A model generated the notes under the pieces. The model was given only the letters and a program-made list of their open reading frames with translations, was not told the DNA's origin and ran no database searches. The translations under genes were made by a program, and so were the position numbers. This document shows, in pieces, positions 47,355 through 64,000 of a DNA stretch of 64,000 nt; position 1 is the first letter of the stretch; each line of letters starts with the position of its first letter. The stretch is from Allokutzneria sp. A3M-2-11 16. Lineage in GTDB: Bacteria > Actinomycetota > Actinomycetes > Mycobacteriales > Pseudonocardiaceae. The stretch is from NCBI RefSeq assembly GCF_024213555.1, contig NZ_JANAVO010000013.1, positions 62,001 to 126,000 on the forward strand. The letters run 5' to 3'.

Positions 47355-47948
47355 GTGGTTCAGGAAGTTCGGATAAGGCTGTGCAAGTTCAGCCCGATTT
47401 TCGAGTACGGGCTCGGGAAGCTGCTGGGGTCGGTCCCCGGCTTCCAGGTGGTCGTCGACCGCGGCGTCACCCGACCGGGGCACGTCGACATCGTCTGCGC
47501 GGCCACGGCCGACGTGGGAGCGGTGGTGCGGATGTCCTCGCGGGCGAGGGTGCTGGTGATGACCGACTCCTGCGAGGCCGAGGACGCCCAGCGCTACTTC
47601 CTCGCGGGCGCGCTGGGCTGCGTGAACGCGTCGGCGCCGCTGCGGACCGTGGTCGAGGCGGTCCAGCGGGTCGCGCGGGGCCAGCGGTTCCTCGCCACGG
47701 ACTTCGGCGTCCCCGCGCCGGTGGGCCCGGGCGGCGGCAACGAAGAGCTCTCGCCGAGGGAGGCCGAGGTGCTCTCGCACATCGCCAACGGCCGCACGCA
47801 CGACCAGATCGCCAGGACGATGGGGATCAGCAGGCACACCGTGGACACCTACGTGAAGCGGGTGCGCAAGAAGCTCAGCCTCGGCAACAAGGCGGAGCTC
47901 ACCCGCGCGGCGATCTCCTCGCAGCTGGCGCTCAGCCGAGCACGCTGA
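47355..47948 (+). CDS. LuxR-type regulator with degenerate receiver
   Basis: The GTG at 47355 is preceded by GGGGGAA. The 197-residue protein has the size and layout of a NarL-family response regulator, but the receiver lacks the acidic pair after strand 1 (reads IRLCKFSP) and has no phospho-acceptor Asp in strand 3 (DIVCAAT). The HTH is normal: LSPREAEVLSHIANGRTHDQIARTMGISRHTVDTYVKRVRKKL. It is therefore a phosphorylation-independent (pseudo-receiver) regulator. Its 3' end overlaps the convergent PEP-enzyme gene by 17 bp. Confidence 0.85.
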   Translation: MVQEVRIRLCKFSPIFEYGLGKLLGSVPGFQVVVDRGVTRPGHVDIVCAATADVGAVVRMSSRARVLVMTDSCEAEDAQRYFLAGALGCVNASAPLRTVVEAVQRVARGQRFLATDFGVPAPVGPGGGNEELSPREAEVLSHIANGRTHDQIARTMGISRHTVDTYVKRVRKKLSLGNKAELTRAAISSQLALSRAR

Positions 47949-50205
47949 CCGTCCCCCGCAGCCCGTCGACCCGGATGCGGTCGCCGGTGGCCAGCCGGGC
48001 GGTGGCGGTACCGCAGCCGACCACCGCCGGGATGCCCAGTTCGCGCGCCACGATCACGGCGTGGGACAGCGGCGCGCCGATGTCGGTGACCACCGCGGCG
48101 GCCCTGGGGAACAGCGGGGTCCAGCCGATGTTGGTGGACACCGCGACCAGGATCTCGCCTGGCAGCAAGGACTCCGCTTCCTCCACTGTGGACACGACGC
48201 GGGCGCTCCCCTCGACGACGCCCGCCACGCCGGGGAACCCGGTGATCGCACCGTCACCGGGTTCCTCGGCACGGTCGAGGGCGTTCGGGTCGAAGCGGCC
48301 CCGGATGAGCGTCGGGTACGGCGGCAGGGCGCGGTACCGCAGGTGCGCCGCGCGCCTGCCCGCGATCTTCGCCACCGCCGCGCGGTCCCCGTCGAGCACC
48401 GCGACGATCTCCGGGAAGGACAGGAAGAACACGTCGTCGCCGAGGCCGGTGAGCTCTCCGGCGCGGACGGCGAACACCCGGAACACCCAGAACCCGCGGA
48501 CGAACTCCGACCGGGCGCGCTCCCGGACGCGCGCGGCCTCGGCGAGCCGGTCGAGCCGGAGGCGGATCAGCCTCGCCCCGAGCGGCCGTCGCGCGCGGAG
48601 CCCGCGCCACGCCGCGTCCCGCGCCCCGGCCTGCCGCCGCAGCAGGGCTTCGGGATCACCGAGCCCGGCGAGCTGCCGGTCCAGCCACTCCGGGTCCTCG
48701 GCGGGCCGCGGCGCGGAGACCTCGAACTCGTCCGGGCATCGGTGCCCCCACGCCCACAGGTAGTCCTCGCGGTCGACCTCGCCGCGTCGCAGCCGCGCCA
48801 GCCCGAGCACCGGGCCGAGGCTCACCAGCGCGCCCTCGGCCTCGTCGTGCAGCCCGGTCATCAGCGCGGCCGCGTCGGCGTCGCCCACCCAGCGCCGCAG
48901 CACCGCCGCGACCCCGTCCGGGCTGGCCTGCCGCGCCCCGGCTTCGAGCGTCCGGCAGGTCCCGGTCAGCAGCTCCGCCACGTCCGAGCGCCACAACCCG
49001 GCGAGCGCGCGCGGGTCGTCGGTCGCGCCGATCCGCCGGTGGAGTTCCTTGCAGCGCTTGGGGTTCTCCGCGAGGAGCCCGCCGAGCCGCCTGCGGTAGG
49101 TCAGCGCCTGCCGGACCATCCACGCGACCATGGCGGCGGCCGCGCGCACCGCCGTGCCACGCGACATCGGCACGCGGGGGATCTCCACCTCGGAGCCGAT
49201 CTGCCCGAAGACGCGCTCGCTCCGCTTCAGCGCGAGCCCGCCGAGCCCGAGCGCGCTCGCCAGGCTGAGCGGCACGCTCAGGTTGAGGTAGAACCGGCCG
49301 CCGATGTTGCCGGTCAGCGGGTGCCCGGCGACCTCCGGCATGGCCAGTTCGCGCACGAGCGACCACGTCGCCGGGGTCATCACGCTCGGGATCGCCTCGC
49401 CGACGTTGGTGCTGGTCCACAGGTAGTCCCCGCGGTGGCTGTCGTCGGCCCGCTCGTCGAGCCCGGTGATCGGCCGCGCCTGCACGAGCCAGAACTCGCC
49501 GTCGTGGCGCGCCCATTCGACGTCCATCGGCATGCCGTGCAGCTCCGCAACGCGCTCGCCGAGCCGGGCGAGCTCCACGATCTCGGCCTCGGTGAGCACC
49601 GGATCGGGGACCGTCCGCACGACCTGCCCGTGCGCGACGACGTAGGTGTCCGGCGTGACCTCACCGCTGACGAGCGCTTCGCCGAGCCCCCGCGCGGCGT
49701 TGATCACCAGCTCGTCGCGGTCACCGGTCAGCGGGTTGGCGGTGAACAGCACTCCGGCGGACTCGGCGGGCACGAGCCGCTGCACCACCACCGCCATCGC
49801 CGCGCTGGAGATGCCGGTGCGATCGCGATAGGCGGTGGCGCGGTCGTTCCACAACGACGCCCAGCACCGCTCGACCGCCTCCAGCACGGCGTCCGCGCCG
49901 ACGACGTCGAGGAAGCTGTCGTACTGACCGGCGAAGGAGAACCCGGGCAGGTCCTCCGCCGTGGCGGACGACCGCACCGCGACCGGTCCGTCCAAAGTGG
50001 ACAGTTCATCGCGGATGGCGGCGGAGACCTCGTCCCTCGCGGAGGCGAACCTCCGGTACGCGTGCGTCGTGACGTGGAATCCGGTGGGCACCGGGAAGCC
50101 CGCGCGGGCGAGCTTCGCCAGCGAGAGCCCCTTGCCGCCGACGGTCGCCAGATCCGTTGCCGCGTCGAGAGGGAGTACCAGCGTCCCGTCAGTCATGCCG
50201 CCCAT
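47932..50205 (-). CDS. PEP-synthase / rifampin-phosphotransferase-like enzyme
   Basis: This 757-residue protein has an N-terminal PEP-synthase ATP-binding domain (VGGKGLSLAKLARAGFPVPTGF, VAVRSSATAEDLPGFSFAGQYDS, VQRLVPAESAGVLFTANPLTG). A divergent helical middle region follows, and a C-terminal swivelling domain with the phospho-His in TDIGAPLSHAVIVARELGIPAVVG. This layout is shared by rifampin phosphotransferases and PEP-synthase-like proteins; the C-terminal PEP-binding barrel of true PEP synthase is absent. It is shorter than typical Rph (about 860). It may phosphorylate an antibiotic or another molecule. An alternative ATG is at 50196. It sits at the right border of the stress island. Confidence 0.85.
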   Translation of the reverse strand: MGGMTDGTLVLPLDAATDLATVGGKGLSLAKLARAGFPVPTGFHVTTHAYRRFASARDEVSAAIRDELSTLDGPVAVRSSATAEDLPGFSFAGQYDSFLDVVGADAVLEAVERCWASLWNDRATAYRDRTGISSAAMAVVVQRLVPAESAGVLFTANPLTGDRDELVINAARGLGEALVSGEVTPDTYVVAHGQVVRTVPDPVLTEAEIVELARLGERVAELHGMPMDVEWARHDGEFWLVQARPITGLDERADDSHRGDYLWTSTNVGEAIPSVMTPATWSLVRELAMPEVAGHPLTGNIGGRFYLNLSVPLSLASALGLGGLALKRSERVFGQIGSEVEIPRVPMSRGTAVRAAAAMVAWMVRQALTYRRRLGGLLAENPKRCKELHRRIGATDDPRALAGLWRSDVAELLTGTCRTLEAGARQASPDGVAAVLRRWVGDADAAALMTGLHDEAEGALVSLGPVLGLARLRRGEVDREDYLWAWGHRCPDEFEVSAPRPAEDPEWLDRQLAGLGDPEALLRRQAGARDAAWRGLRARRPLGARLIRLRLDRLAEAARVRERARSEFVRGFWVFRVFAVRAGELTGLGDDVFFLSFPEIVAVLDGDRAAVAKIAGRRAAHLRYRALPPYPTLIRGRFDPNALDRAEEPGDGAITGFPGVAGVVEGSARVVSTVEEAESLLPGEILVAVSTNIGWTPLFPRAAAVVTDIGAPLSHAVIVARELGIPAVVGCGTATARLATGDRIRVDGLRGTVSVLG

Positions 50206-50450: not shown

Positions 50451-51365
50451 GTGTCGCGGACCAGAAAAGACGCCATTCCGGATTACGATTTCACATCGCA
50501 CTGGTTCCGGCACTCCGCCGCTCGGCAGCATTACCTCGACGAGGGCAGCGGGCCGCCGGTGCTCATGCTGCACGGCAACCCGAGCTGGAGCTTCCTCTGG
50601 CGCCGCCTGGTCCGCGAGCTGCGCTCCGACCACCGCTGCGTCGTGCCCGACCACGTCGGCATGGGGCTCTCGGACCGCCCGGCGGAGCGCGACTACGACT
50701 ACACGCTGGCCTCGCGGGTGGAGGACCTCGCGGCGCTCACCGACGAGCTGATCAAGAACGGCGGCGCCCCGGCGACCGGCTGGACGCTGGTGGCCCACGA
50801 CTGGGGCGGGGCGATCGGCATGGCGTGGGCGGCGCGGTACCCGGAGCGGGTGTCACGCCTGGTCATGCTGAACACGGCGGCCTTCCCGAGCCCGTTCCGG
50901 AGGTTCCCGCTGACCCTGCGGCTACCGCTCTGGGCGATCAAGAACACCCGGGTCGCCGAGCACCTGTTCCTCCGGCACAACGCCTTCGCCAGGGGTGCGG
51001 CGCTGCTCGGCGTGACCAGCCGGATGCCCGAGGAGGTCCGCGCCGGGTACCTGCACCCGTACCGGAGACCCCAGGACCGGCTGGCGATCCTGCGCTTCGT
51101 GCAGGACATCCCGCTGCGGCCGGGCGATCGGGCCTGGCTGGAGCTGCTCGCCGCCGAGTGCGGTGCGGCGCTGCTGGCCGACCGCCCCGCCTTCATCGGC
51201 TGGGGCGGGCGGGACCCCGTTTTCCGTTCGGCGTTCCTCGACGAATGGCGAAGACGTTTCCCGAGGGCGACATATCGGGTATACCCGAAGGCTGGTCACT
51301 ACGTCCTCGAAGATCGTGCGCCGGAACTGTTACGAGAGATTCGCGAGTTTCTTTCCGTTTCCTGA
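50451..51365 (+). CDS. oleB: OleB, beta-lactone decarboxylase (alpha/beta hydrolase)
   Basis: The GTG at 50451 begins a 304-residue haloalkane-dehalogenase-like alpha/beta hydrolase. It shows LHGNPSWSFLWRRL, PDHVGMGLSDRP, nucleophile D117 in AHDWGGAIGMAWA, likely acid D255 in WGGRDPVF and H283 in AGHYVLED. OleB decarboxylates the cis-beta-lactone made by OleC to give a cis-olefin. A nearby oleA, oleC and oleD on the same strand make the assignment firm. It is the first gene of the operon; the 245-bp region upstream (50206-50450) should hold the main promoter. The last about 130 bp are noticeably less GC-rich than the rest. Confidence 0.9.
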   Translation: MSRTRKDAIPDYDFTSHWFRHSAARQHYLDEGSGPPVLMLHGNPSWSFLWRRLVRELRSDHRCVVPDHVGMGLSDRPAERDYDYTLASRVEDLAALTDELIKNGGAPATGWTLVAHDWGGAIGMAWAARYPERVSRLVMLNTAAFPSPFRRFPLTLRLPLWAIKNTRVAEHLFLRHNAFARGAALLGVTSRMPEEVRAGYLHPYRRPQDRLAILRFVQDIPLRPGDRAWLELLAAECGAALLADRPAFIGWGGRDPVFRSAFLDEWRRRFPRATYRVYPKAGHYVLEDRAPELLREIREFLSVS

Positions 51366-51405
51366 GGTTACGGATCGGTATTCCTCTACCCCGGGAGTAA
51401 GTGCT

Positions 51406-53322
51406 GTGGGTGAAACGCGTCTGGCATGTGCCGGAATCGGTTACGCCATGGGGGCTTGCGGTTCAGTCGAATCGTTCGAGCGCGCCCATTACTCGGGTAC
51501 CCCGATCGGGGAGAGCCGGACCTGGCCCGCGGAACGGGTACAGGAGGAGGCGCTGCGCGATGCCGCGGTCTCCGCGCAGGACGAGCGCGTGGTGGTCGTG
51601 GAGGTCACGGACGGCCTGGCCAAGGCACTGGCGCGGGCCGGGGAAGAACTCGCGGACGCCGATGTCGTGCTGGTCTGCGAAGAGGGGGCGGCGATCGCCC
51701 TGACCAGGCCGGACCGACCCGCTCCGAAGATCTACGCGACGCTGGCCGTCCCGGAGCCCGATGCGTCCGCCACCCTGGACGACCTGGTGCGGGCGGCGCT
51801 CAGCCTCTACCACCGCTACCTCCCGCCGGGCCCGGAGAACGCCGGCGTGAGCTGTCCCTGGCTGTGCGAGAGGGACGGCGCGCCGCTGCGCACCACGGTC
51901 GGCGAGCTGACCCTCACCGGCGCCAACACCCGCGACGAGATCGCGCCGGTGGACTGGCACTACGCCACCGACGTGGTGTTGCTGCCCGTCTGCGGTAAGG
52001 ACACCGAAGACCTGATCGCAGCCGTCACGCGGGTGAAGGAGGCCGTCGACGAGGGCGCTGACCTGGCCGATCTCGTGGCCGACGACGCGGAAGCACCCCT
52101 GCGGGCGGTGTTCAGCGCGAAGCCCGACGCGATGGCCCGTGAACTGGACCGCGCACTGACCTCGCTGGCACGCGCACACGCCGAGGGCAAGGACTGGGCG
52201 AGTCCCAACGGCAGCTACTGCGCGGTGCGGCCGATCGGCGCGGACGGCGGTGTCGCGCTCGTCTACCCCGGGCTGTTCACCTTGTACGCGGGACTGAGCC
52301 GGGAGCTGATGCGCCTGTTCCCGGTGGTGCACTCCGCCCTGGAGGCACTCGCACTGGACACGGGCGCCGTCGAGCATCGCGACCTCGTGCAGCGCCTGCT
52401 CGGCCGGGTGGCCGGGCCGGAGGACGAGGCCGGGCTGGAACGGGAACTGGTCAACGACCTCGGCGCCTTGTGCGCGATCGGAGTCGGGTTCACCACCGCC
52501 CACACCCAGCTGCTGCGCGCGCTGCTCGGCCGCCGGGACCTCGGCGCGGTCGGCTACAGCCTCGGCGAGGTGAGCATGATCATCGCGGCCCAGCCCGACA
52601 CCCGTGACTTCTGGGCGCTCAGGTCGCTGGGGGCGATGCCCGTGCTCGACGACGGGATCGCGGCCTCGGATCGCGTCGTGCGGCGGAAGTGGGAGATCCC
52701 CGATTCCGATCCGGGCCCGGTGTGGGGCTCCCGGGTGATCATGGGAGACCCGGAGCGGGTGCGCACCGCCGTGCGCGGTCGGGACCGCGTCTTCCTCAGT
52801 CACGTCAACACCCCCGGCGAGGTCGTGATCACCGGCGACCCCACCGAGTGCGCCCAGGTAGCCGCCGAGCTGGGCCTGCCGAGCATTCCCTCGGCGCACA
52901 GCCACGTCTTCCACACGCCGTTGATGGAGCGGGGCTACTTCGAGAGCGCCTTCGACCAGCCGGTGACCGTGGACCCGCGCGTCGAGCTGTTCAGCGCCCA
53001 CGAGAACCGCCCGTTCGCGAAGGGCGACAGGGATCTCGGCGACAAGATCATGACGATGCTCAGCCGCCAGGTGGACTTCGCCCGCGTGGTGCGCGCCGCC
53101 TACGTGCAGGGCTACCGCTACTTCCTGGAGGTCGGCCCCGGCGGCGTGTGCACCCGGTGGATCACCGACACCCTCGCGGGCAAGCCGCACGTCGCGGTTC
53201 CGCTCGAACGGCGCGGCGCGCCCGCCGTGAACACCGTCGCGGGCCTGGTCGCCCGGCTCGCGAGCAACGGCGTCCCCCTCGACCTGACTCCGTTTTTGCC
53301 GGTCCAGAAGGAGACGACGTGA
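51406..53322 (+). CDS. pfaB: PfaB-like acyltransferase protein of a PUFA-synthase system
   Basis: The GTG at 51406 is chosen because GGGAG lies 8 nt upstream and the longer frame runs back into oleB. The 638-residue protein has an N-terminal part without clear catalytic residues (about 1-260). A C-terminal FabD-like acyltransferase follows: ALVYPGLFTLYAGLSRELM, the nucleophile S385 in VGYSLGEVSMI, and later SHVFHTPLMERGYFESAFD and YFLEVGPGGVCTRW. This layout and the GYSLGE motif fit PfaB of PUFA synthases. It probably loads or offloads acyl groups on the Pfa carrier proteins. Its stop overlaps the ACP start. Identity as PfaB rather than another stand-alone AT is likely but not certain. Confidence 0.75.
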   Translation: MGETRLACAGIGYAMGACGSVESFERAHYSGTPIGESRTWPAERVQEEALRDAAVSAQDERVVVVEVTDGLAKALARAGEELADADVVLVCEEGAAIALTRPDRPAPKIYATLAVPEPDASATLDDLVRAALSLYHRYLPPGPENAGVSCPWLCERDGAPLRTTVGELTLTGANTRDEIAPVDWHYATDVVLLPVCGKDTEDLIAAVTRVKEAVDEGADLADLVADDAEAPLRAVFSAKPDAMARELDRALTSLARAHAEGKDWASPNGSYCAVRPIGADGGVALVYPGLFTLYAGLSRELMRLFPVVHSALEALALDTGAVEHRDLVQRLLGRVAGPEDEAGLERELVNDLGALCAIGVGFTTAHTQLLRALLGRRDLGAVGYSLGEVSMIIAAQPDTRDFWALRSLGAMPVLDDGIAASDRVVRRKWEIPDSDPGPVWGSRVIMGDPERVRTAVRGRDRVFLSHVNTPGEVVITGDPTECAQVAAELGLPSIPSAHSHVFHTPLMERGYFESAFDQPVTVDPRVELFSAHENRPFAKGDRDLGDKIMTMLSRQVDFARVVRAAYVQGYRYFLEVGPGGVCTRWITDTLAGKPHVAVPLERRGAPAVNTVAGLVARLASNGVPLDLTPFLPVQKETT

Positions 53323-53582
53323 CAACAGTCGATCGAGCGGAAGTCCTGACATACGTTCGGCAACAGATCGCCGCGCACCTCCAGGTCGACGTCGAGCAGG
53401 TGCAGCCGGACATGCCGGTCTACGCGTTGCCGGACATCGACTCGCTGAAGGCGATGCGGGCGATCACCGACGTGGAGAAGCGCTTCGGGGTGACCGCGCC
53501 GGTCGGCGAGATCATCGTGACGCGCACGGTCGGCGAGGTCGCGGATGTCCTGCACGCGGTGATCGAGGAGAGCCGGGCGTGA
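53319..53582 (+). CDS. Stand-alone acyl carrier protein
   Basis: The GTG at 53319 overlaps the acyltransferase stop. The 87-residue protein has the ACP shape with the phosphopantetheine Ser in DIDSLKAMRAI (about residue 48) and a following helix VEKRFGVTAPVGEI. It sits between the acyltransferase and oleA, so it is a good candidate to carry an acyl chain from the PKS to OleA. Its stop overlaps the oleA GTG. Free ACPs are not part of canonical pfa or ole operons. Confidence 0.88.
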   Translation: MTTVDRAEVLTYVRQQIAAHLQVDVEQVQPDMPVYALPDIDSLKAMRAITDVEKRFGVTAPVGEIIVTRTVGEVADVLHAVIEESRA

Positions 53583-54586
53583 GCTACTCCAGGATCAGCC
53601 GGATCGCCGTGCACCTGCCGGAAGGCGGCCGGACCAGCGAGGAGGTGGAAGCCCTCGTCGCCGAGCTGAACCCGGGCTTCGAACCGCCGGAGGGACTGAT
53701 CGAGCGGTTCACCGGGGTGCGCTTCCGGCACATCGCGCCGGAGGACACGCAGGCATCGGACCTGGCGGTGGCCGCGGTCGGGAAGCTCTTCGCCGAGTGG
53801 GGTCACGGCATCGACGACGTGGACCTGTTGATCTTCGCCGCGGCGAGCACGGACGTCATCGAGCCCGCGACGGCGCACATCGTCGCCGACAAGCTCGGCG
53901 GCTCGTGCCCGGTCTTCGACGTCAGCAACGCGTGCAGCAGCGTGTTCAACGCGATCGAGGTCGCCGACGCGCTCATCCGCACCGGGCAGTACCGGCGAGT
54001 GCTGATCGCTTGCGGTGAAAGGGTTTCACCCGGTGCTCGCTACCGCGGCATCACCTCGGTGGACGACTACGTGCACGCCGGGGCCTCGCACACAGTGTCC
54101 GACGCGGGTGCCGCGCTGCTGGTGGAGGCCAGTGACGAGCCGGGGATCATCGGACACCGGTCGACCGCCAACTCCAGCGCGTGGTCGGCCACTGTCATCC
54201 CGTTGGTGCACGACAAGGAAGCCGACACGCTGAAGGTGGAGTACCTCGGCGTGAAGACGTTGGACCTGATGAAGGGGCTCGACCAGGCGGACATCACGCC
54301 GCTGCTGGACGCGGTCGCCGGGTTCGGTCTGAGCATGGCCGACTTCGACGTGGTGTGCATCCACCAGGCCGTGCTCGCGTACGTGGAGGTGTTCTGCGAG
54401 CGCGCCGGAATTCCTTACGACCGCACGGTTCTGACGCTTGCCGATCACGGCAACGTGGCCTCGGCGACCCTGCCGCTGCAACTGGTGACCGCCGTGGAGA
54501 GCGGGCGCCTGAAGCCGGGGGACAGGGTGCTGCTCGTCGGCCTGGCCAGCGGGCTCAGCCTCGGCGTGATGGCGATGCGATGGTGA
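53579..54586 (+). CDS. oleA: OleA, head-to-head acyl condensing thiolase
   Basis: The GTG at 53579 overlaps the ACP stop. The 335-residue KSIII-fold enzyme has nucleophile C119 in DVSNACSSVFN, H262 in IHQAVLAY and N292 in GNVASATLPL. Crucially, E95 in IEPATA lies in the same place relative to the Cys as Glu117 of Xanthomonas OleA, the base that sets OleA apart from FabH. OleA joins two acyl-thioesters in a non-decarboxylative Claisen condensation to a 2-alkyl-3-ketoacid. Here the second acyl partner may come from the co-encoded Pfa-like synthase. It overlaps oleC. Confidence 0.92.
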   Translation: MSYSRISRIAVHLPEGGRTSEEVEALVAELNPGFEPPEGLIERFTGVRFRHIAPEDTQASDLAVAAVGKLFAEWGHGIDDVDLLIFAAASTDVIEPATAHIVADKLGGSCPVFDVSNACSSVFNAIEVADALIRTGQYRRVLIACGERVSPGARYRGITSVDDYVHAGASHTVSDAGAALLVEASDEPGIIGHRSTANSSAWSATVIPLVHDKEADTLKVEYLGVKTLDLMKGLDQADITPLLDAVAGFGLSMADFDVVCIHQAVLAYVEVFCERAGIPYDRTVLTLADHGNVASATLPLQLVTAVESGRLKPGDRVLLVGLASGLSLGVMAMRW

Positions 54587-56208
54587 GCCGGCACGCCCAC
54601 GACTTCCTGGCCGCGTTCCAGGACTCGGTGGAGCACCGCCCGGACAGCACGGCGGTCTGGTGGCCCACGGGAGGCGGCGCGTACTCGTTGATGAGCTATG
54701 CCGAACTCGGAGAGCTGGGCGAGGAGTACACCGTCGCACTGTGGAACGCGGGGCTGCGCAAGGGAATGCGAGCCTGCGTGCTCGTGCCGCCCGGACCGGA
54801 GCTGGGCGCGTTGTTCTTCGCGCTGGTCCGGATCGGCGTGATCCCGGTGCTCATCGATCCCGGTATCGCGAAGACGGCGTTGCGGGCCTGCGTCGCGGAG
54901 TCCGCGCCCGAGGCGTTCATCGGTGTTCCGCTGGCGCATGCCGCGCGCGTAGTGCTGGGTTGGGGACGATCCAGCGTGCGCATCCCGATCACCGTGGGGC
55001 GCAGGTGGTTCTGGGGCGGCCCGACGCTGAAGGCGTTGTGCGCTCGGGTCGGCGAGCAGCCGCCGGAGCTCGACCCGGATCCCGAGGCGCTCGCGGGCAT
55101 CGCGTTCACCTCGGGCTCGACCGGGCCGCCGAAGGGCGTGGAGTTCCGGGGCCGCCACCTCGGCGCGCAGACGCGGCTGGCCGGGCAGGTGTTCCCGATC
55201 CCGCCCGGGATGGTCGGGATGTCCACGTTCCCGCCGTTCTCGCTGGCCGGGCCCGCGCTCGGGCTGAGCATGGTGGTGCCGGACATGGACCCGGTGCACC
55301 CGGCGGAGGCCGATCCGGCGGCGCTGATCACCGAGATCGACCGGTTCGGGGTGCGCGGCATGTTCGGCTCGCCAGCGCTGCTGGACCGGCTGTCCCGGTA
55401 CTGCGTGGACAACGACGTCGTGCTGTCGTCGTTGTCCGTGGTCACCTCGGCCGGGGCGTCGCTGGACCCGCGGATCGCCGAGCGGATGCGCAAGTGCCTG
55501 AAGCCGGATGCGTTGCTGTACTCCGGGTACGGCGCGACGGAGTGCCTGCCGGTCAGCGTGATCGAGAGCCGGGACCTGCTCGGCGAGGCCCGCGTGGCGA
55601 GCGAGAACGGCGCGGGCACCTGCGTCGGCGTCCCGCTGGCCGACAACGACGTGCGGATCATCCGGGTCGACGACGACCCGATCGCCGAGTGGAGCGATGA
55701 TCTCCTTGTCAAACAAGGGGAAATCGGGGAGATCACGGTCGCCGGGCCGAGCGTCAGCGAGCGCTACCACAACCGCCCGGACGCGACCGCGCTGCACAAG
55801 ATCCGCGACGGCGACCGGATCGTGCACCGCGTCGGCGATCTCGGCTGGCTCGACGAGCACGGGCGGTTGTGGTTCTGCGGCCGCAAGTCGCAGCGCGTCC
55901 GCACCTCCCACGGCGACCTGAACACCGAGCAGGTCGAGCCGATCGCGAACACGGTGCGCGGGGTGCGGCGCACCGCACTGGTCGGCGTCGGTCCCGCGGG
56001 ACGGCAGCAGCCGGTGGTGTGCGTGGAGACCGAACGCGGGGTCCGGCAGTCCGGCCGGAACCGGATCGCCGCCGAGGTGCTGCGCCTGGTCGGCGACCGC
56101 GGCATCGACACCGTGCTGTTCCACCCGGGGTTCCCGGTGGACGTCCGGCACAACGCGAAGATCGGCCGGGAGCGGCTGGCCCGGTGGGCGTCGAGGAGGG
56201 CGCGATGA
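54580..56208 (+). CDS. oleC: OleC, beta-lactone synthetase (AMP-ligase fold)
   Basis: The ATG at 54580 (GTG 54583 is an alternative) overlaps the oleA stop. The 542-residue adenylating enzyme has FTSGSTGPPKGVEF (about 176-189), GSPALLDRL, SAGASLDP, SGYGATECLP, and a C-terminal WFCGRKSQRV with a final lysine in NAKIGRERL. The FPPFSLAGPALGL and ATECLPVS segments match OleC, which adenylates the beta-hydroxyacid and closes it to a cis-beta-lactone. It is the third step of the olefin pathway. Its stop overlaps oleD. Confidence 0.92.
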   Translation: MVSRHAHDFLAAFQDSVEHRPDSTAVWWPTGGGAYSLMSYAELGELGEEYTVALWNAGLRKGMRACVLVPPGPELGALFFALVRIGVIPVLIDPGIAKTALRACVAESAPEAFIGVPLAHAARVVLGWGRSSVRIPITVGRRWFWGGPTLKALCARVGEQPPELDPDPEALAGIAFTSGSTGPPKGVEFRGRHLGAQTRLAGQVFPIPPGMVGMSTFPPFSLAGPALGLSMVVPDMDPVHPAEADPAALITEIDRFGVRGMFGSPALLDRLSRYCVDNDVVLSSLSVVTSAGASLDPRIAERMRKCLKPDALLYSGYGATECLPVSVIESRDLLGEARVASENGAGTCVGVPLADNDVRIIRVDDDPIAEWSDDLLVKQGEIGEITVAGPSVSERYHNRPDATALHKIRDGDRIVHRVGDLGWLDEHGRLWFCGRKSQRVRTSHGDLNTEQVEPIANTVRGVRRTALVGVGPAGRQQPVVCVETERGVRQSGRNRIAAEVLRLVGDRGIDTVLFHPGFPVDVRHNAKIGRERLARWASRRAR

Positions 56209-57194
56209 AGATCCTGGTGACCGGCGGTGGTGGCTTCCTCGGCAAGGCGGTGTGCGCGCGGCTGCTGGCGGCCGGGCACGAGGTGACCTCGTTCTCCCGC
56301 AACTACCACGCGGACCTGGAGGTGGACCAGCTCCAGGGCGACCTCCAGGACTACGGCACGGTGACCGCGGCGGTCGCGGGCCGGGACGCGGTTGTCCACT
56401 GTGGAGCGAAGGCCGGTCAGTGGGGCCAGACCTACGAGTTCTACGGCATCAACGTGCTCGGTACCGACCACGTGATCAAGGCGTGCCGGGAGAACGGGGT
56501 GCCGCGGCTGGTCCACACGTCCAGCCCGAGCGTCGTCCACAATGGACAGGACCTGGAAGGGGTCGACGAGAACGCGCCGTACGCGAAGCACTTCCACGGC
56601 GACTACCCCAGGACCAAGGCCGAGGCGGAGAAGCGGGTGCTGGCCGCCAACTCCCCGGAGCTGGCCACGGTGGCGCTGCGCCCGCACCTCATCTGGGGTC
56701 CCGGCGATCCGCACTTCCTGCCCAGGATCATCGGCAGGGCAAGGGCCGGGCGGATGCGGCTGATCGGGCCGCCGGGCAAGCGCGTCGACACCATCTACAT
56801 CGACAACGCCGCCGACGCGCACCTGCTTGCCGTGGAGAGGCTGGAGCCGGGCTCGCCGATCGCCGGGCGCGCGTACTTCCTCACCCAGGACGATCCGCGC
56901 ACCGCGGACGAGACGCTGAACGCGCTGCTGGCCGTCGCCGGACTGCCACCGGAGACGCGGCGCGTGCCGTTCGCCCTGGCCAAGTTCGCCGCGACGGTGG
57001 TGGAGGGCGCGTACCGGCTGGCCGCCGTGCGCGCCGAGCCGCCCCTGACGCGGATGGTGATCCAGCACGGCGGCACCTCGCACTGGTTCGACATCTCCGC
57101 CGCCCGCCGCGACCTCGGCTACCACCCGAAGGTCAGCACCGAGGAGGGCCTGCGGCGCCTGACCGAACACCTCTCCGCGCGGGAGCGAGCATGA
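56205..57194 (+). CDS. oleD: OleD, NADPH-dependent 2-alkyl-3-ketoacid reductase
   Basis: The ATG at 56205 overlaps the oleC stop. The 329-residue 3-beta-HSD-like extended SDR has GGGGFLG (residues 7-13), HCGAKAGQWG, TSSPSVVHNGQD, and the Y134-x-x-x-K138 pair in DYPRTKAEAEK. PHLIWGPGDPHFLPRI is typical of OleD and LstD-like enzymes. It reduces the OleA product to a beta-hydroxyacid before OleC acts. Its stop overlaps pfaD. Confidence 0.93.
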   Translation: MKILVTGGGGFLGKAVCARLLAAGHEVTSFSRNYHADLEVDQLQGDLQDYGTVTAAVAGRDAVVHCGAKAGQWGQTYEFYGINVLGTDHVIKACRENGVPRLVHTSSPSVVHNGQDLEGVDENAPYAKHFHGDYPRTKAEAEKRVLAANSPELATVALRPHLIWGPGDPHFLPRIIGRARAGRMRLIGPPGKRVDTIYIDNAADAHLLAVERLEPGSPIAGRAYFLTQDDPRTADETLNALLAVAGLPPETRRVPFALAKFAATVVEGAYRLAAVRAEPPLTRMVIQHGGTSHWFDISAARRDLGYHPKVSTEEGLRRLTEHLSARERA

Positions 57195-58693
57195 TCGATC
57201 TCATCCACCGGGTGCGCGAACCGCTGCCCGTCACGCGCGGCGCGGACGGCGGCATCACCGTCGGCCAGGGCGAAACGCTCGGCGTCCTGCCCGCGCTCTA
57301 CCCGGAATGGCTCGGCGACCGCAGCTTCTGCGAAGCTCATGGCGTCCGTTTCCCTTATGTCGCAGGGGAGATGGCCAACGGGATCGCGACGACGCGCATG
57401 GTGGTCGCGATGGCCCGCGCCGACATGCTCGGCTTCTTCGGCGCGGGTGGCCTCGCACCGTCCACAGTGGAGTCAGCGGTCGAGGAGCTGAGCCGCGAGC
57501 TCGCCGGGCGGACGAACTGGGGCGTGAACCTGATCCACTCGCCGACCGAGCCCGCCATCGAGGAGGCGGTCGCGGACCTCCTGCTCCGGCGCGGCGTGCC
57601 CAGGATCTCCGCGTCGGCGTTCATGACGCTGACCCCGGCGGTCGTGCGGTGCGCCGTCTCCGGGTTGCGCCGCGAGGCCAACGGCTGGATCAGCCGCCGC
57701 ACCACCGTCTTCGCCAAGCTCTCCCGCCCGGAGCTGGCCGAGAAGTTCCTCTCCCCGGCGCCCGAGCCACTGCTGCGCGTGCTGGTGGAGCGCGGTCAGA
57801 TCACCGCAGAGGAAGCCGAGCTGGCTCGCCACGTTCCGGTCGCGGAGGACGTCACCGTGGAGGCCGACAGCGGCGGGCACACCGACAACCGGCCGCTTTC
57901 CGCTTTGCTGCCAACGATTCTGGCGGTTCGCGACGAGATGTGCGCACGGTACGGCTACCACCGCCCGGTGCGCGTGGGCGCGGCGGGCGGGCTGGGCACT
58001 CCGGCGGCGGTCGCGGCGGCCTTCGCGCTCGGTGCCGCGTACGTGCTGACCGGCTCGGTGAACCAGGTCGCGGTCGAGGCCGGGGTGTCCGAAGAGGCCA
58101 AGAAGCTGTTGGCGCAGGCCGACATCACCGACGTCGCGATGGCTCCCGCAGCCGACATGTTCGAGCTCGGCGTCAAGCTCCAGGTGCTCAAGCGGGGCAC
58201 GATGTTCGCCGCGCGAGCGAACCGGCTCTACCAGGTCTACCGCGACCACGACGGCATCGAGGGCATTCCACAACCGCTGCTGGACCGCCTGGAGAAGGAA
58301 GTCCTCGGTGCCTCCGTCGGGGACGTCTGGGTGCGGACCAAGCAGTTCTGGGCCGAGCGCGACCCGGCCGAGCTGGACAAGGCCGAGCGCGACCCGAAGC
58401 ACCGCATGGCGCTCGTTTTCCGTTGGTACCTGGGCGGTTCCAGCCGCTGGGCGATCACCGGCGACCCGGTCCGGCGCAGCGACTACCAGCTGTGGTGCGG
58501 CCCGGCGATGGGTGCGTTCAACCGCTGGGCCGCGGGCAGTTTCCTCGCCGAGCCCGCCAACCGCTCCGTCGTGCAGATCGCGCTGAACCTGCTTGAGGGC
58601 GCCGCCGTGCTCACCCGAGCCCACCAGGCCCGCACGTACGGCGTCGCCGTTCCCGCCGAAGCGTTCGCTTTCCGCCCCCGCCCGCTGAGTTGA
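57191..58693 (+). CDS. pfaD: PfaD-like FMN enoyl reductase
   Basis: The ATG at 57191 overlaps the oleD stop. The 500-residue TIM-barrel flavoprotein has WGVNLIHSP-EPAIEEAVADLLLRRGVPRISASAFM (split), RVGAAGGLGTPAAVAAAFALGAAYVLTGSVNQ and APAADMFELGVKLQVLKRGTMFAARANRLY, the pattern of PfaD/FabK-type trans enoyl reductases. In PUFA synthases it reduces selected double bonds of the growing chain. It is slightly shorter than marine PfaD. A GAGGGAG box just after its stop serves the PKS gene. Confidence 0.92.
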   Translation: MIDLIHRVREPLPVTRGADGGITVGQGETLGVLPALYPEWLGDRSFCEAHGVRFPYVAGEMANGIATTRMVVAMARADMLGFFGAGGLAPSTVESAVEELSRELAGRTNWGVNLIHSPTEPAIEEAVADLLLRRGVPRISASAFMTLTPAVVRCAVSGLRREANGWISRRTTVFAKLSRPELAEKFLSPAPEPLLRVLVERGQITAEEAELARHVPVAEDVTVEADSGGHTDNRPLSALLPTILAVRDEMCARYGYHRPVRVGAAGGLGTPAAVAAAFALGAAYVLTGSVNQVAVEAGVSEEAKKLLAQADITDVAMAPAADMFELGVKLQVLKRGTMFAARANRLYQVYRDHDGIEGIPQPLLDRLEKEVLGASVGDVWVRTKQFWAERDPAELDKAERDPKHRMALVFRWYLGGSSRWAITGDPVRRSDYQLWCGPAMGAFNRWAAGSFLAEPANRSVVQIALNLLEGAAVLTRAHQARTYGVAVPAEAFAFRPRPLS

Positions 58694-58703
58694 GGGAGTC
58701 GCC

Positions 58704-61700
58704 ATGTTCGAGGACTTCGCGCCCACTGTGCCGATCGCCGTGGTCGGCCTCGGCGCGCTGCTGCCGGGTTCCGAGAACACGGCGGGGTTCTGGCGCACGG
58801 TGTCGGCGGGCCGGGACATGATCACCGAGGTGCCCGCGGACCGCTGGCTGCTGGAGGACTTCTACGACCCGGACCCGCTGGCCCCCGACAAGACCTACGC
58901 CAAGCGCGGCGCGTTCCTGTCGGCGACGGAGTTCGACCCGCTCGCTTTCGGTGTGCTGCCGAAGAACCTGGACCAGACCGACGCCGCGCAGCTGCTGTCG
59001 CTGATGGTGGCGGAACGCGTGCTCGCGGAGGTGGCGGGCGGCGACCCGGCGTCCCTGGATCGTGACCGGACCGGCATCGTGCTGGGCGCGTCGACGCTCA
59101 ACCTGGTGGGATCCCTGGCGCAGCGCATGTCGGGGCCGGCACTCGCGAGGGTGCTCCGCGCGCAGGGCCTGCCTGATTCCACCGTGCGCGAGGCCGTCGC
59201 GCGGTTCACCGGGCTGGCTCCGGAATGGGGTGAGGCGAGCTTCCCCGGTCTGCTCACCAACGTGCTGTCCGGACGGATCGCCAACCGCTTCGACCTGCAC
59301 GGGATGAACCACACCACCGACGCGGCCTGCGCGAGCTCGTTCGCGGCGCTGCACACGGCCGTCGACGAGCTGGCTTCCGGTCGCGCCGACCTGATGCTGG
59401 CCGGGGGCGTGGACACCGCCAGCGAGGCGTTCATGTTCGTCTGCTTCTCCAAGACTCCCGCGCTGTCCCTGACCGGGGACTGCCGCCCGTTCTCCGAACA
59501 GGCCGACGGAACCATGCTCGGCGAAGGCATCGCGATGTTCGCATTGAAGCGGCTCGCCGATGTCGAACGCGACGGGGACAAGGTCTACGCGGTGATCCGC
59601 GGCATCGGTACCGCCTCTGATGGTGGCGGAACGGCGATCTACGCGCCGGTGCCGGAAGGACAGGCGCGAGCGTTGCGCAGGGCCTATGAGCGCGCGGGCT
59701 ACTCACCGTCCACTGTGGAGCTTGTCGAGGCGCACGGGACCGGCACCAAGGCCGGGGACGCCGCGGAGTTCGCCGGGCTGCGATCGGTGTTCGGTGACGA
59801 TCGGGACGACGCCCAGTGGTGCGCCCTCGGTTCGGTCAAGTCCCAGATCGGGCACACGAAGTGCACGGCGGGCGCGGCCGGGCTGCTCAAGGCGATCCTG
59901 GCCCTGCACCACCGCGTGCTCCCGCCGACGATCAAGGTCGACGCGCCGAACCCGAGCCTGGAGATCGAGAGCAGTCCCTTCTACCTCAACACCGCCGCCC
60001 GGCCGTGGGTGCGCGGTGACGATCACCCCCGGCGCGCCTCGGTGTCGAGCTTCGGCTTCGGCGGCAGCAACTTCCACGTCACGGTGGAGGAGTACGTCCC
60101 GAGCGAGTCGGGCTGGGCGGAGCGCGCACCGCGCTCCAGGACCGCCGCGACCGAACTCTGGCTGTTCAGCGCCGACACCAAGGAAGGGCTGGCCGAACGC
60201 GAGCTTTCCGCTCAGGAAAGTCAACGGCGCTTCGAACCCAAGGCCCCGTTCCGCCTCGCCGTCGTCGCCACCGATGAGGCCGACCTGAAGGCGAAGATCA
60301 CGCAGGCCAGGGAGCTGATCGGGCGCGAAGCGGCGTTCACCGCGCCCGGGCTGGCCTACGCGTCCGGCCCGGCCGAACTCGGCGGCCTCGCCCTGCTCTT
60401 CCCCGGCCAGGGCTCCCAGTACGTCGGCATGGGAGCGGATCTGGCGATGCAGCTCCCCGCCGCTCAGCGAGCATGGGATCGTTACGGCACAAAGGAGTTC
60501 GACGGCACGCCGCTGCACCGCGTCGTGTTCCCGTGCCCGGTCTTCACCGACGCCGACCGCGTGGAGCAGAAGGCCCGGATCACCGCGACGGAGTGGGCGC
60601 AGCCCGCCCTCGCCGCGCACAGCCTCGCGCTGCTCGACGTGGTCCGGGCCCTGGGGCTGCGCCCGGACTGCGTTGCCGGGCACAGCTTCGGCGAACTCAC
60701 CGCGCTGCACGCCGCCGGAGTGCTCGATGCCGACGCGTTACTGGACGTCGCCCGGCGCCGCGGTGAGCTGATGCGCGACGCCGCACAGACCACCGCGGGC
60801 GCCATGCTGGCGGTGACGGCGAATCACGAGAAGGTCGAGGCCGTGATCGCCGAACTGGACGGCGTGTGGATCGCCAACCACAACGCGCCCGAACAGATCG
60901 TCCTGTCCGGCACCACGGCCGGGATCGCCGCCGCGGAGGCTGCGTTCAAGGGTGTCACCACCCGTAGGCTCGAAGCCGCGACCGCCTTCCACAGCCCGGT
61001 GGTGGCCGACGCGGCAGCCCCGTTCGCCGAGCACCTGTCCACTGTGGACATCTCGGAGTCATCCATCCCCGTGTACGGCAACACCGACGGTGACACCTAT
61101 CCGTCCGAAGTGGACGAAGTGCGCGGACGCATCGCGGGCCACCTCGCCGCCCCAGTGCTGTTCCAGGCGCAGATCGAGGCGATGTACGCGGCGGGTGCGC
61201 GGACCTTCGTCGAGGTCGGCGCGGGCAGCACCCTCACTGGGCTGGTCGGACGGGTGCTGGGGGATCGGCCGCACGTGGCGGTGTGCCTGGACCGCGCTCG
61301 CCGCAACGGCATGACCACGGTGCACGAAGCCCTCGGCCGCCTCGCGGTAGCCGGTGCGGAGCTTGACTACGCCGTGCTCTGGGAGGAGTACGGCTCGGTA
61401 CCCGAGCCCCAGCGGAAGGACGGCGCACGGATGACGGTGAAGGTCGACGGTGGACACTACGACCGCTCCTACCCACCCAAGGACGGGGAGCTGGCGCCGT
61501 CTCCGGTTCCCGCGCAGGTGACCAACGGCCACCTGCCCGTCCCTGCCCCGCCGGTCATGAACGGCCACGTGGACCAGTCGACGCGCAGCCTGCTGGAGGA
61601 GACCCAACGGCAGGCCGCGCTCGCCCACGCCGACTACCAACGCCAGACGGCCGAGGCGCACGCGGACTACCAGCGCCGGGTCACCGAGAGCCACCTGGCC

Positions 61701-64000
61701 TACCTCCGCATGTCCGAGCTGTCCCTGTCCGCTCTCCTCGGAACGCCCGCGCCCGCCGCCCCTCCGCCCACGTTCTCACCGGCACCGGTGGCGTTCCAGC
61801 CGCCGCCGATGCCCGCCCCGCCGTCGATCGCCCCGTCCGTGATGGCCCCGCCGGTGACGAGCCAGCCGGTGACGAGCCCGTCCGTGATGGCCCCGCCACC
61901 GCCGGTTGCGGCCCCCGCCGCCGTCCCGGCTCCCGCGCCGATCCCGGCCGAAGCCCCCGCCGCACTGTCCGAAGTGGACATCGACGCGAAGATCCTCGAG
62001 GTCGTCGCGGAGCGCACCGGCTACCCGGCCGAGATCCTCAACCTGGACATGGAGCTGGAGTCCGACCTGGGCATCGACTCCATCAAGCGGGTGGAGATCC
62101 TCTCCGCCTTCCGCGACCACACCGGCGACCTCCCGGACAGCGACATCGCCGAGTTCGCCGCCGCCCGCACGTTGCGCGAGGTCGCCGAGAAGGTCCGCAA
62201 CCTCAACGGCGCCCCCGCGCCCGCCGAACCCAAGTCAGTCACCCCTGTGCTGGGTGAGCTGGTCAGAAGCGTTCCGGCGGCGGTCCCCACGACCCGCGCG
62301 GAGCTCGCCGTCGCAGGGCTGTTCGACGGCCCGATCGCGGTGATCGACGATGGCACCGGCATAGCCGAGGCGATCGCCGTGGAGCTCCGAGAGCACGGCT
62401 GCGCCGCCTCTGTCGAAACGGAAGTGCCCCAAGACGCCACCGGCCTCATCCTGCTCAACCTCGCCGAAGTGGCGGCAGACAAGGCCGTCGCGCACCTGAC
62501 CATCCCGATCCTCGCCGCCTCGGCGATCGCCGACCGCTGCAAGCTCCTCGTCACCGTCCAGGACACCGGAGGCGACTTCGGCCTGAGCGGCGCACAAGGC
62601 GACCGCGCGTGGACGGCCGGGCTCTCCGGCCTTGCCCGCACCGCCGCCCGCGAATGGCCGGACTCGGCGATCAAGGCGCTCGACCTCGAACGCGGTGCCC
62701 GCACACCCGGCGAACTGGCCGAAGCCGTTGTGCGCGAACTCCTCGAAGGCGGCCCCGACCTGGACGTGGGGCTTCGCGCGGACGGCACCCGCAACACGCT
62801 CCGGATGCGCCCGGAACCCTTGTCCGGAAACGAAAGCATGATGATCACCAAGGAGTCGGTGATCGTCGCCACGGGTGGAGCGCGGGGGGTGACCGCTGCC
62901 TCGCTCATCGAGCTGGCCAAGCGGCGCCAACCCCGGATCGTCCTGCTGGGCCGCACAACGCTGAAGGTCGAGCCCGCTGGGCTGCGCGCCCACGTGGACG
63001 AGCCCTCCCTCGTCCGTGCGCTGGCCGCGACGAGACAAGCCGATCCCGCCGCGCTCTCCGCCCAGGCCAAGGACATCCTGGCCGGTCGAGAGGTCCGCGA
63101 CACGATCGTCGCCCTGGAGGACGCGGGCGCCACCGTGCGCTACACCGCCGTCGACGTGCGCGACGAAGCCGCCTTGACCGAAGCCCTGAGCCAGGTCCGC
63201 GCCGAGTGGGGCCCGATCACCGGCATCGTGCACGGTGCCGGTGTGCTCGCGGACAAACACTTGGTGGACAAGACTTCCGAGCAGATCGAACGCGTGCTGC
63301 GCACCAAGATCGACTCGCTGCGGACGCTGCTGCGCGCGACGGCGGACGACCCCGTGGACCTGCTGTGCCTGTTCTCCTCGGTCACCGGACTCTTCGGCAA
63401 CGCGGGCCAAGCCGACTACGCCGTCGCCAACGAGGTCCTGGACCAGGTCGCCGCGGTCGAACTCGCCCGCAAGCCCGGTCGCGTGGTCCGCTCCATCGAC
63501 TGGGGACCGTGGCACGGCGGCATGGTCACACCGCAGCTGGCGGAACTGTTCACCGGCAACGGTGTTCCCCTGATCCCCATCGCGGCCGGGGCGAGCGCGT
63601 TCGCCGAGGAAGCACTGCGCCCGGGTGCGCCGAGCAGGGTGTGCCTCGCCCAGCAGGACGGCACGGCCCCGGCCTCAGCGACCACGCCCATGGAGATCGT
63701 CGTCAACGAAGTCCGCAACCCGTACCTGGTCGACCACACGATCAACGGTGTGACGATCCTGCCGGTCGTGATGGCGATCGAATGGTTCATCAGAGCCGCC
63801 GGGGAACCGGTGGCGCTACAGAACTTCCGGGTGCTGCGCAAGGTCACCTTGCCCGGCTACCGGGGCGACGGCGACCGCCTCACGGTCCAGCGCTCCGGTG
63901 CTGACCTCGAACTCCGCGATGGCGTCGCCCACATGAGGGCGACGCTCGGCGAGCACACCGGACCCCGCGACTGGCCGGAGCTGGCCGACACCTCGTCACC
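58704..64000 (+). CDS. pfaA: PfaA-like iterative type I PKS (KS-AT-ACP-KR-DH...), cut by window edge
   Basis: The ATG at 58704 follows GAGGGAG. The visible 1765 residues hold: KS (about 5-460) with C209 in TTDAACASS and histidines in EAHGTGT and SQIGHTKC; AT (about 555-850) with S661 in GHSFGE; a coiled linker with repeated AHADYQR units (about 970-990) and a long Pro/Ala-rich linker; one ACP with S1126 in LGIDSIKRVE; KR (about 1385-1610) with TGGARGVTA and Y1572; and the start of a hot-dog DH with H1678-x-x-x-G-x-x-x-x-P. The order is that of PfaA, but marine PfaA has 4-9 tandem ACPs and this has one. The frame is open at the edge; further domains or a PfaC protein may follow. Confidence 0.9.
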   Translation, partial: MFEDFAPTVPIAVVGLGALLPGSENTAGFWRTVSAGRDMITEVPADRWLLEDFYDPDPLAPDKTYAKRGAFLSATEFDPLAFGVLPKNLDQTDAAQLLSLMVAERVLAEVAGGDPASLDRDRTGIVLGASTLNLVGSLAQRMSGPALARVLRAQGLPDSTVREAVARFTGLAPEWGEASFPGLLTNVLSGRIANRFDLHGMNHTTDAACASSFAALHTAVDELASGRADLMLAGGVDTASEAFMFVCFSKTPALSLTGDCRPFSEQADGTMLGEGIAMFALKRLADVERDGDKVYAVIRGIGTASDGGGTAIYAPVPEGQARALRRAYERAGYSPSTVELVEAHGTGTKAGDAAEFAGLRSVFGDDRDDAQWCALGSVKSQIGHTKCTAGAAGLLKAILALHHRVLPPTIKVDAPNPSLEIESSPFYLNTAARPWVRGDDHPRRASVSSFGFGGSNFHVTVEEYVPSESGWAERAPRSRTAATELWLFSADTKEGLAERELSAQESQRRFEPKAPFRLAVVATDEADLKAKITQARELIGREAAFTAPGLAYASGPAELGGLALLFPGQGSQYVGMGADLAMQLPAAQRAWDRYGTKEFDGTPLHRVVFPCPVFTDADRVEQKARITATEWAQPALAAHSLALLDVVRALGLRPDCVAGHSFGELTALHAAGVLDADALLDVARRRGELMRDAAQTTAGAMLAVTANHEKVEAVIAELDGVWIANHNAPEQIVLSGTTAGIAAAEAAFKGVTTRRLEAATAFHSPVVADAAAPFAEHLSTVDISESSIPVYGNTDGDTYPSEVDEVRGRIAGHLAAPVLFQAQIEAMYAAGARTFVEVGAGSTLTGLVGRVLGDRPHVAVCLDRARRNGMTTVHEALGRLAVAGAELDYAVLWEEYGSVPEPQRKDGARMTVKVDGGHYDRSYPPKDGELAPSPVPAQVTNGHLPVPAPPVMNGHVDQSTRSLLEETQRQAALAHADYQRQTAEAHADYQRRVTESHLAYLRMSELSLSALLGTPAPAAPPPTFSPAPVAFQPPPMPAPPSIAPSVMAPPVTSQPVTSPSVMAPPPPVAAPAAVPAPAPIPAEAPAALSEVDIDAKILEVVAERTGYPAEILNLDMELESDLGIDSIKRVEILSAFRDHTGDLPDSDIAEFAAARTLREVAEKVRNLNGAPAPAEPKSVTPVLGELVRSVPAAVPTTRAELAVAGLFDGPIAVIDDGTGIAEAIAVELREHGCAASVETEVPQDATGLILLNLAEVAADKAVAHLTIPILAASAIADRCKLLVTVQDTGGDFGLSGAQGDRAWTAGLSGLARTAAREWPDSAIKALDLERGARTPGELAEAVVRELLEGGPDLDVGLRADGTRNTLRMRPEPLSGNESMMITKESVIVATGGARGVTAASLIELAKRRQPRIVLLGRTTLKVEPAGLRAHVDEPSLVRALAATRQADPAALSAQAKDILAGREVRDTIVALEDAGATVRYTAVDVRDEAALTEALSQVRAEWGPITGIVHGAGVLADKHLVDKTSEQIERVLRTKIDSLRTLLRATADDPVDLLCLFSSVTGLFGNAGQADYAVANEVLDQVAAVELARKPGRVVRSIDWGPWHGGMVTPQLAELFTGNGVPLIPIAAGASAFAEEALRPGAPSRVCLAQQDGTAPASATTPMEIVVNEVRNPYLVDHTINGVTILPVVMAIEWFIRAAGEPVALQNFRVLRKVTLPGYRGDGDRLTVQRSGADLELRDGVAHMRATLGEHTGPRDWPELADTSS

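Follow-up and report, generated by a model that had tools for sequence, protein, structure and literature searches.

The window analysed here, a stretch of 64,000 nucleotides from Allokutzneria sp. A3M-2-11 16 (positions 62001-126000 of contig C4 in an 8.8-Mb genome; G+C content in the window ~71%), runs at its far end into a block of genes in which a polyunsaturated fatty acid (PUFA) synthase, the Pfa system, is interleaved with a complete Ole set for head-to-head hydrocarbon formation. Including a pfaC gene just beyond the window, nine co-directional genes follow each other on the + strand from position 50451 in the order oleB-pfaB-ACP-oleA-oleC-oleD-pfaD-pfaA-pfaC, where ACP stands for a free acyl carrier protein. 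On balance, we favour the reading that this operon makes a polyunsaturated long-chain hydrocarbon, that the chain made by the synthase reaches OleA via PfaB and the free ACP, and that the system was assembled independently of the Geobacter-type operons in which pfa and ole genes are also coupled. The genes and their assignments are as follows, with KS denoting ketosynthase, AT acyltransferase, KR ketoreductase, DH dehydratase and CLF chain-length factor.

50451..51365, + strand: oleB, alpha/beta hydrolase, beta-lactone decarboxylase-like (haloalkane dehalogenase family; 61/64 invariant columns)
51406..53322, + strand: pfaB-like free-standing acyltransferase, motif GYSLG (TIGR02816, 2.8e-20, below cut-off; structure 9ry8)
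53319..53582, + strand: free ACP, attachment serine in DSL (PF00550, 2.7e-9, scanned from 53325; 4-bp overlaps on both sides)
53579..54586, + strand: oleA, condensing enzyme of the beta-ketoacyl-ACP synthase III (KAS III) fold with E95, C119, H262 and N292 (KAS III matches; AlphaFold 2 (AF2) model, mean per-residue confidence (pLDDT) 88.7)
54583..56208, + strand: oleC, beta-lactone synthetase (NF045786, 1.2e-193, below cut-off; 79/88 invariant columns)
56205..57194, + strand: oleD, 2-alkyl-3-oxoalkanoate reductase (NF042422, 3.5e-124, below cut-off; 72/73 invariant columns)
57191..58693, + strand: pfaD, enoyl reductase of the PUFA-synthase type (TIGR02814, 667 bits, cut-off 449)
58704..64000 in the window, continuing to 64406, + strand: pfaA, KS-MAT(GHSFG)-one ACP-KR-DH, 1900 amino acids (TIGR02813, 1226 bits, cut-off 1010; Pfam domains)
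64406-71059, wholly outside the window (L010:406-7059), + strand: pfaC, KS-CLF-AT(GYSSG)-four FabA-type stretches-DH of the polyketide synthase (PKS) type-unassigned C-terminus, 2217 amino acids (Pfam)

Gene layout and the Ole enzymes

Overlaps of 4 bp occur at five of the seven junctions within the window (pfaB/ACP, ACP/oleA, oleA/oleC, oleC/oleD and oleD/pfaD), which bears out the preliminary description of eight mostly overlapping + strand genes, the last of which, pfaA, runs off the window. The other two junctions are short gaps, of 10 bp between pfaD and pfaA and of 40 bp between oleB and pfaB, the latter if the GTG at 51406, one choice among several starts, is taken as the start of pfaB. 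The contig continues for 7381 bp past the window; there pfaA ends at 64406 and overlaps by 1 bp with pfaC, whose coordinates are extrapolated and which is the PfaC-like gene that the preliminary description had proposed to look for beyond position 64000. All three genomes sampled for the genus carry OleC and the same gene order, ruling out chance or misassembly. The earlier claim that the whole Ole set shares one apparent operon with a complete Pfa-type synthase is supported. In genome G034 a 16S rRNA gene starts 600 bp after pfaC, and the contigs end 322 bp past pfaC in the window genome and ~50 bp past it in G068, as is expected at rRNA repeats. The operon therefore ends at pfaC, and the nine-gene set looks complete. 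Neither a thioesterase nor a phosphopantetheinyl transferase (PPTase) gene lies downstream of pfaC in G034, where the rRNA genes come next.

To gauge the Ole enzymes, we counted matches to columns that are the same in at least 95% of rows in alignments of each enzyme with 49-68 counterparts at other ole loci. OleB matches 61 of 64 such columns (51 OleB sequences), including D117, D255 and H283, and OleC and OleD match 79 of 88 and 72 of 73, respectively, of those of the canonical enzymes. Both OleC (644 bits, cut-off 900) and OleD (414 bits, cut-off 580) stay below the cut-offs of the NCBI olefin equivalog models, though these are their best matches, and the names of the models point to particular lineages. 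For OleA, only 26 of 46 invariant columns are matched, among them E95, C119, H262 and N292, which we take to be catalytic; for Glu, Cys and His this fits mutant structures listed in the fold search. E95 and C119, both already noticed in the preliminary description, line up with the corresponding Glu and Cys in 3fk5, a homologue from Xanthomonas. The Glu is absent from the two FabH sequences aligned and is kept in all listed rows of the OleA clade to which the window protein belongs.

A separate OleA clade and the known pfa-ole clusters

OleA of the window differs from canonical OleA proteins at the active site itself. Directly after the active-site Cys, 47 of the 49 canonical OleA rows have Leu, most relatives of the window OleA have Asn and the window OleA itself has Ser. 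It therefore reads NACS in place of NACL and is missed by the published pattern EPxx[AS]x(14,18)DxxNACL (PMC7158056). In a 90-row OleA tree, 39 actinobacterial rows fall together with an SH-aLRT (approximate likelihood-ratio test) support of 98 and 47 canonical rows with a support of 99; the ole-locus rows L130 and L153 stand outside both groups. This tree and those of OleB, OleC and OleD are quick searches with long branches, and the latter three hold some genomes twice owing to overlapping loci. A more careful tree, of which only the branch supports are used, groups the OleA proteins of the window, G034, G047, G194, G223, G109 and G252 (97/91), with Nonomuraea next (94/93). In it, a branch with modest support (85/50) separates the two OleA clades from seven other KAS-like rows, of which four are not verified as KAS III. 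One actinobacterial OleA row, L078, bore a KAS label in error, which voids the AU test (p 0.0154) made on this tree. On these trees, the window OleA belongs to a separate actinobacterial clade outside the canonical one. Together with the presence of pfaC, this is what is new relative to the preliminary description.

The largest sister group of the window OleA is 44-53% identical to it and accounts for 27 of the 35 fetched loci of the family, with a distant OleC (24-28% identity) and/or OleD (30-37%) on the same strand in 26 of the 27 and no OleB match in any of the 27. OleB, OleC and OleD from the window, Saccharothrix's genus, G252 and Nonomuraea cluster with supports of 99, 100 and 91, and the OleD cluster additionally takes in G047 and stand-alone OleD paralogues. 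The next rows outside this PKS-linked cluster are Lysobacterales for OleC (87) and, weakly, for OleB (69), not Geobacter-type loci.

The coupling of pfa and ole genes in one unit, presented as new in the preliminary description, has precedents. Geobacter bemidjiensis, which makes a C31:9 hydrocarbon, has pfaD, A, B, C, oleA, B, C, D and pfaE in tandem, and a link between genes and product was speculated upon (PMC4882568); Photobacterium profundum has pfa and ole operons side by side, and Shewanella OleA uses Pfa-derived chains (PMC6463001). Type I pfa-ole clusters were defined by Shulse and Allen in 2011, who remarked that Nakamurella (Type L) has ole genes (PMC3098273). Beyond that remark, our literature search, which most subscription papers lay outside, turned up no paper on ole genes fed by Pfa-type or reducing PKSs in actinomycetes, and the terms ole, olefin and hydrocarbon gave no match in a survey from 2026 that deals with hybrids of PUFA synthases (PMC13291983). 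Fetched loci agree on the precedents. Among the best 80 of 574 loci aligned by OleD, a selection that is not random and from which the window genome itself was possibly left out, 43 show some pfa-type match, that is, similarity to the window proteins, which could include other PKSs. In 32 of the 80, oleA is preceded on its own strand by a gene of the pfaA, pfaC or pfaD type that ends less than 1 kb before it; the 32 include Geobacter, Geomonas, Malonomonas, planctomycetes and Riflebacteria, and 31 are non-actinobacterial, the other (L161) being a reducing-PKS case. Of the rest, 28 have no oleA on the + strand, 14 have oleA with no pfa-type match within 1 kb upstream, and six start too near oleA to tell.

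The Geobacter-type clusters likewise unite a Pfa synthase and a complete Ole set in one co-directional block. They differ from the window operon in their order, with the pfa genes followed by oleA-B-C-D (pfaC-oleA-oleB-oleC-oleD), and in their OleA, which is of the canonical clade and 24-32% identical to that of the window; similarity to the window ACP revealed no free ACP in the fetched loci. In Shewanella and Photobacterium, OleA draws on Pfa-derived chains as proposed here, whereas the operons are separate or neighbouring, with a gene for a PfaT thioesterase between the two in P. profundum (PMC6463001). Because of the trees and identities, the actinobacterial version was probably assembled independently of the Geobacter-type operons, following the same logic with a different OleA clade and lineage-specific OleB and OleC. 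If so, PUFA synthases became coupled to head-to-head condensation on at least two occasions, each time with another condensing enzyme, and a repeated origin would speak for a real advantage of dedicated coupling.

Proposed route from the Pfa synthase to a hydrocarbon

PfaA and PfaD score above their curated cut-offs. PfaB matches its own model weakly, and its best solved structure is PfaBs 9ry8 (2.7e-24). In PfaC, Pfam finds a KS, four FabA stretches and an AT under the cut-off; the KS keeps its Cys, and the CLF was assigned by position and by eye, with Glu replacing the active Cys. PfaA has one PP-binding stretch and not the tandem ACPs by which Pfa synthases are recognised, a trait shared with 17 of 20 uncoupled pfa loci of the family, which also show a single ACP match.

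The AT motifs separate the transferases. PfaA carries GHS[FL]G at all 28 loci, a count in which two genomes appear twice, and PfaC carries GYS[SA]G in 21 of 23 matches, with GYSLG in L172 and no motif in L192. Free PfaB has GYSLG in the window, L044, L045, L170 and L171, as does the fused PfaB of L172. A Tyr in this motif is reported to mark PfaB-type long-chain transferases, and off-loading of the chain to a soluble ACP was proposed as a possible role of PfaB (PMC12895367). By its motif, then, the operon would hold a second long-chain transferase, and this one adjoins a free ACP. None of the 20 uncoupled pfaD loci shows PfaB or an ACP outside PfaA and PfaC, and several of these stretches stop near the end of pfaC; among their 18 genomes, 15 lack a PfaB match and three have PfaB beside another pfaD. 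In both genomes of Saccharothrix's genus the PfaB-ACP pair lies at the far end of the pfa block, and in G047 an ACP directly precedes oleA. Weak ACP matches (E 0.004-0.015) occur in short frames 1.3-2.8 kb from oleA, with a KS between, in the sister-group loci L067, L070, L071 and L077. These observations support, without proving, that the OleA clade of the window works on carrier-bound chains, and the nearness of its OleA to FabH, an ACP-using enzyme, fits such substrates.

In the route that we propose from domain content, PfaA, PfaC and PfaD would build an acyl chain iteratively from malonyl units, the FabA-type dehydratases leaving double bonds. Since the nine genes include no thioesterase, off-loading would fall to PfaB, which may pass the chain to the free ACP, or directly, and from there to Cys119 of OleA. 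OleA would then join this chain to another acyl thioester, with E95 as the base. In the Ole family, OleD next reduces the keto group, OleC closes a beta-lactone and OleB removes CO2 from the lactone to give an internal alkene; the residues for these steps are conserved here, and the same sequence would apply. Given the FabA-type dehydratases and the well-conserved OleB, our best guess for the product is a polyunsaturated internal alkene.

The preliminary description had left the choice between a hydrocarbon and a beta-lactone to the activity of OleB, and the conservation of OleB (61/64) now favours the former. A polyene beta-lactone, with OleB weak or used otherwise, strikes us as unlikely. 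It would resemble what may be made in the OleB-less sister group: at L052, the sole sister-group locus examined by Pfam, a glycosyltransferase follows oleA, and Smith et al. (2020) read such a layout, an OleA-glycosyltransferase-OleC-OleD cluster of the Actinoplanes type, as a beta-lactone pathway (PMC7064751). G047, too, has no oleB nearby. Against this, oleB heads the window operon, is present in the three genomes of the genus and both of Saccharothrix's genus, and has kept 61 of the 64 invariant columns. The Actinoplanes-type layout differs from the window operon in its distant OleC and OleD as well as its missing OleB match.

We also doubt, rather strongly, that two pathways merely share a promoter, with OleA acting on ordinary fatty acyl thioesters and the synthase making another lipid. 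Canonical OleA does condense ordinary acyl-CoA (PMC7064751), and the same genome has a second pfa cluster without ole genes (L163). Moreover, of the 79 genomes with PfaD among 297 of the family, only six have OleD (1e-70) within 10 kb, so that this kind of synthase can serve without Ole enzymes. Yet oleA, oleC and oleD are interleaved between pfaB-ACP and pfaD-pfaA-pfaC, another genus has rearranged but complete sets, and PKS domains lie beside ole in 7/7 other OleB loci of the class. That the synthase is primed by 'OleA' acting as a FabH-like starter enzyme, with OleB, OleC and OleD doing something else, is highly improbable. The single sequence and the model are indeed closer to FabH than to Xanthomonas OleA, but E95 occupies the Glu position of Xanthomonas OleA, the two OleA clades stand apart from the KAS-like rows in the careful tree (with modest support), and OleC, OleD and OleB are intact.

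Several observations do weigh against a Pfa-fed hydrocarbon pathway. The window OleA matches FabH 4ryb (2.5e-34) better than the Xanthomonas OleA structures 3fk5 (2.5e-28) and 3row (1e-27), and in a fold search with the AF2 model FabH takes ranks 1-21, with OleA from rank 22; a profile search with Xanthomonas OleA on top included three canonical OleA rows, so this result is partly by construction. Purified Actinoplanes OleA, scarce and precipitating, was unreactive with all acyl-CoAs tested (PMC7064751); that it belongs to the same clade as the window OleA is our inference. Promoter and terminator scans of the operon gave matches at chance level only. The absence of a free ACP from uncoupled loci is weakly tested, many of them ending near pfaC, and PfaB-like regions occur in 20 of the 297 family genomes, six coupled and 14 uncoupled. 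Thirteen of the uncoupled ones sit in frames of more than 2100 amino acids, perhaps as fusions (open-frame length is a poor guide to fusion in DNA so rich in G+C), and one (G066) in a 644-amino-acid frame beside a PfaD. Finally, G047 has no oleB or oleC near its pfa cluster, the product of which would differ. PfaB is thus not exclusive to coupling; so far, it is the free PfaB-ACP pair beside this type of pfaDAC that goes with it. As a compact system, the operon lends itself to asking how a Pfa chain reaches OleA, through the hand-off between PfaB and the free ACP.

Distribution and related clusters

The 297 genomes of the family sample include 34 with a relative of OleA (1e-60), 79 with PfaD (1e-80) and 25 with OleD. 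Domain content was taken from tblastn; the gene caller missed or mis-framed genes. Read from match positions, the six with OleD within 10 kb of PfaD are the three of the genus, two of genus g22 and G047; the remaining OleD genomes are 18 of genus g42 plus G252. Across the phylum, six of 396 genomes gave an OleC match at 1e-100. The closest counterparts of the window operon, the Saccharothrix tamanrassetensis locus (L091 = G194) and G223, have the same nine components, with OleB 67-68%, OleC 60% and PfaD 70-71% identical; unlike the window operon, they are split into two divergent blocks, with pfaB-ACP after pfaC and no KS detected in PfaC. That the operon was imported recently as a unit is not supported: its G+C of 0.69-0.72 throughout is like that of the surroundings, and PfaD identity reaches 74% in other family genera vs 51% in the sole non-actinobacterial PfaD seen (L110).

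Relatives of this OleA also lie beside synthases of another kind. In Nonomuraea glycinis (L161), G252 (L059) and G109 (L049), the neighbouring gene encodes one KS-AT-DH-methyltransferase-enoyl reductase-KR-ACP protein of ~2400 amino acids. L161 and L059 share the nearest OleB, OleC and OleD with the window, whereas L049 has no OleC or OleD match; G252 has oleA, a 2403-amino-acid PKS, oleB, oleC and oleD in a row. An OleB search in 394 genomes of the class gave eight positives, and all seven loci other than the window have a KS in the fetched stretch, mostly with an AT, six of them together with this OleA; none of this OleA was seen in the 12-kb contig of L188. At two Nonomuraea loci, L138 (examined by Pfam) and L087 (by tblastn), a KS is all that accompanies oleA. 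The placement of relatives beside pfa-type synthases or reducing PKSs suggests a PKS-fed Ole lineage, which seems to keep company with various kinds of PKS genes, the Pfa coupling being one form. More tentatively, and with less confidence than we place in the Pfa-fed route itself, the actinomycete OleA clade could serve iterative type I synthases in general, off-loading their chains and fusing them, in an independently evolved PKS-fed hydrocarbon pathway that feeds OleD, OleC and OleB. In the Pfa version it would take finished chains via PfaB and the free ACP; where the synthase is a reducing PKS, it would take them from the ACP within that protein. The products of such a pathway would then include methyl-branched polyketide hydrocarbons.

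Micrococcales are stated to be the only Gram-positive order with oleABCD clusters (PMC7158056). This statement and the OleA pattern of that paper pass over the ole sets in Pseudonocardiales and Streptosporangiales. Two g42 loci examined (L166:5106-9575 and L175:6138-10670) hold ordinary oleABCD with a canonical OleA (27% identity) and no pfa match, in contrast to that report. At G047 (L172:2659-17906), the pfa cluster is accompanied by an ACP, oleA and oleD, and a 1778-amino-acid protein joins PfaB-like and FabA-DH parts. OleD paralogues with no other ole genes beside them (L162:4715-5893 on G000:C41 and L168:7963-8961 in G034) are 68-70% identical to the operon OleD.

The window genome has further pfa genes. 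Its second cluster (G000:C38, L163:3333-15298) comprises pfaD, a pfaA with two ACPs and a KS-CLF-AT-DH protein, and its domains are mostly 44-68% identical to those of the window. A third PfaD (60% identity; G000:C9, L164:7764-13110) has a separate FabA-DH/PKS-DH/C-terminal protein nearby, and this cluster is apparently incomplete or differently built. In the family pfa clusters L193-L196, L200, L205, L208 and L210, tblastn detects no KS in PfaC, which seems to begin at the CLF. The ~100 C-terminal residues of the window PfaC (L010:6766-7056) are also found in other PfaC proteins of the family (36-64% identity) and match no Pfam or NCBIfam family; by eye they recall a PPTase remnant, which we do not claim, there being no family match.

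Upstream of oleB, 245 bp lead to a divergent gene resembling phosphoenolpyruvate (PEP) synthases and rifamycin phosphotransferases (47932-50205; below all cut-offs), alongside which lies a gene for a LuxR-type regulator (47355-47948). Both are retained in G034, with one extra small predicted gene in between.

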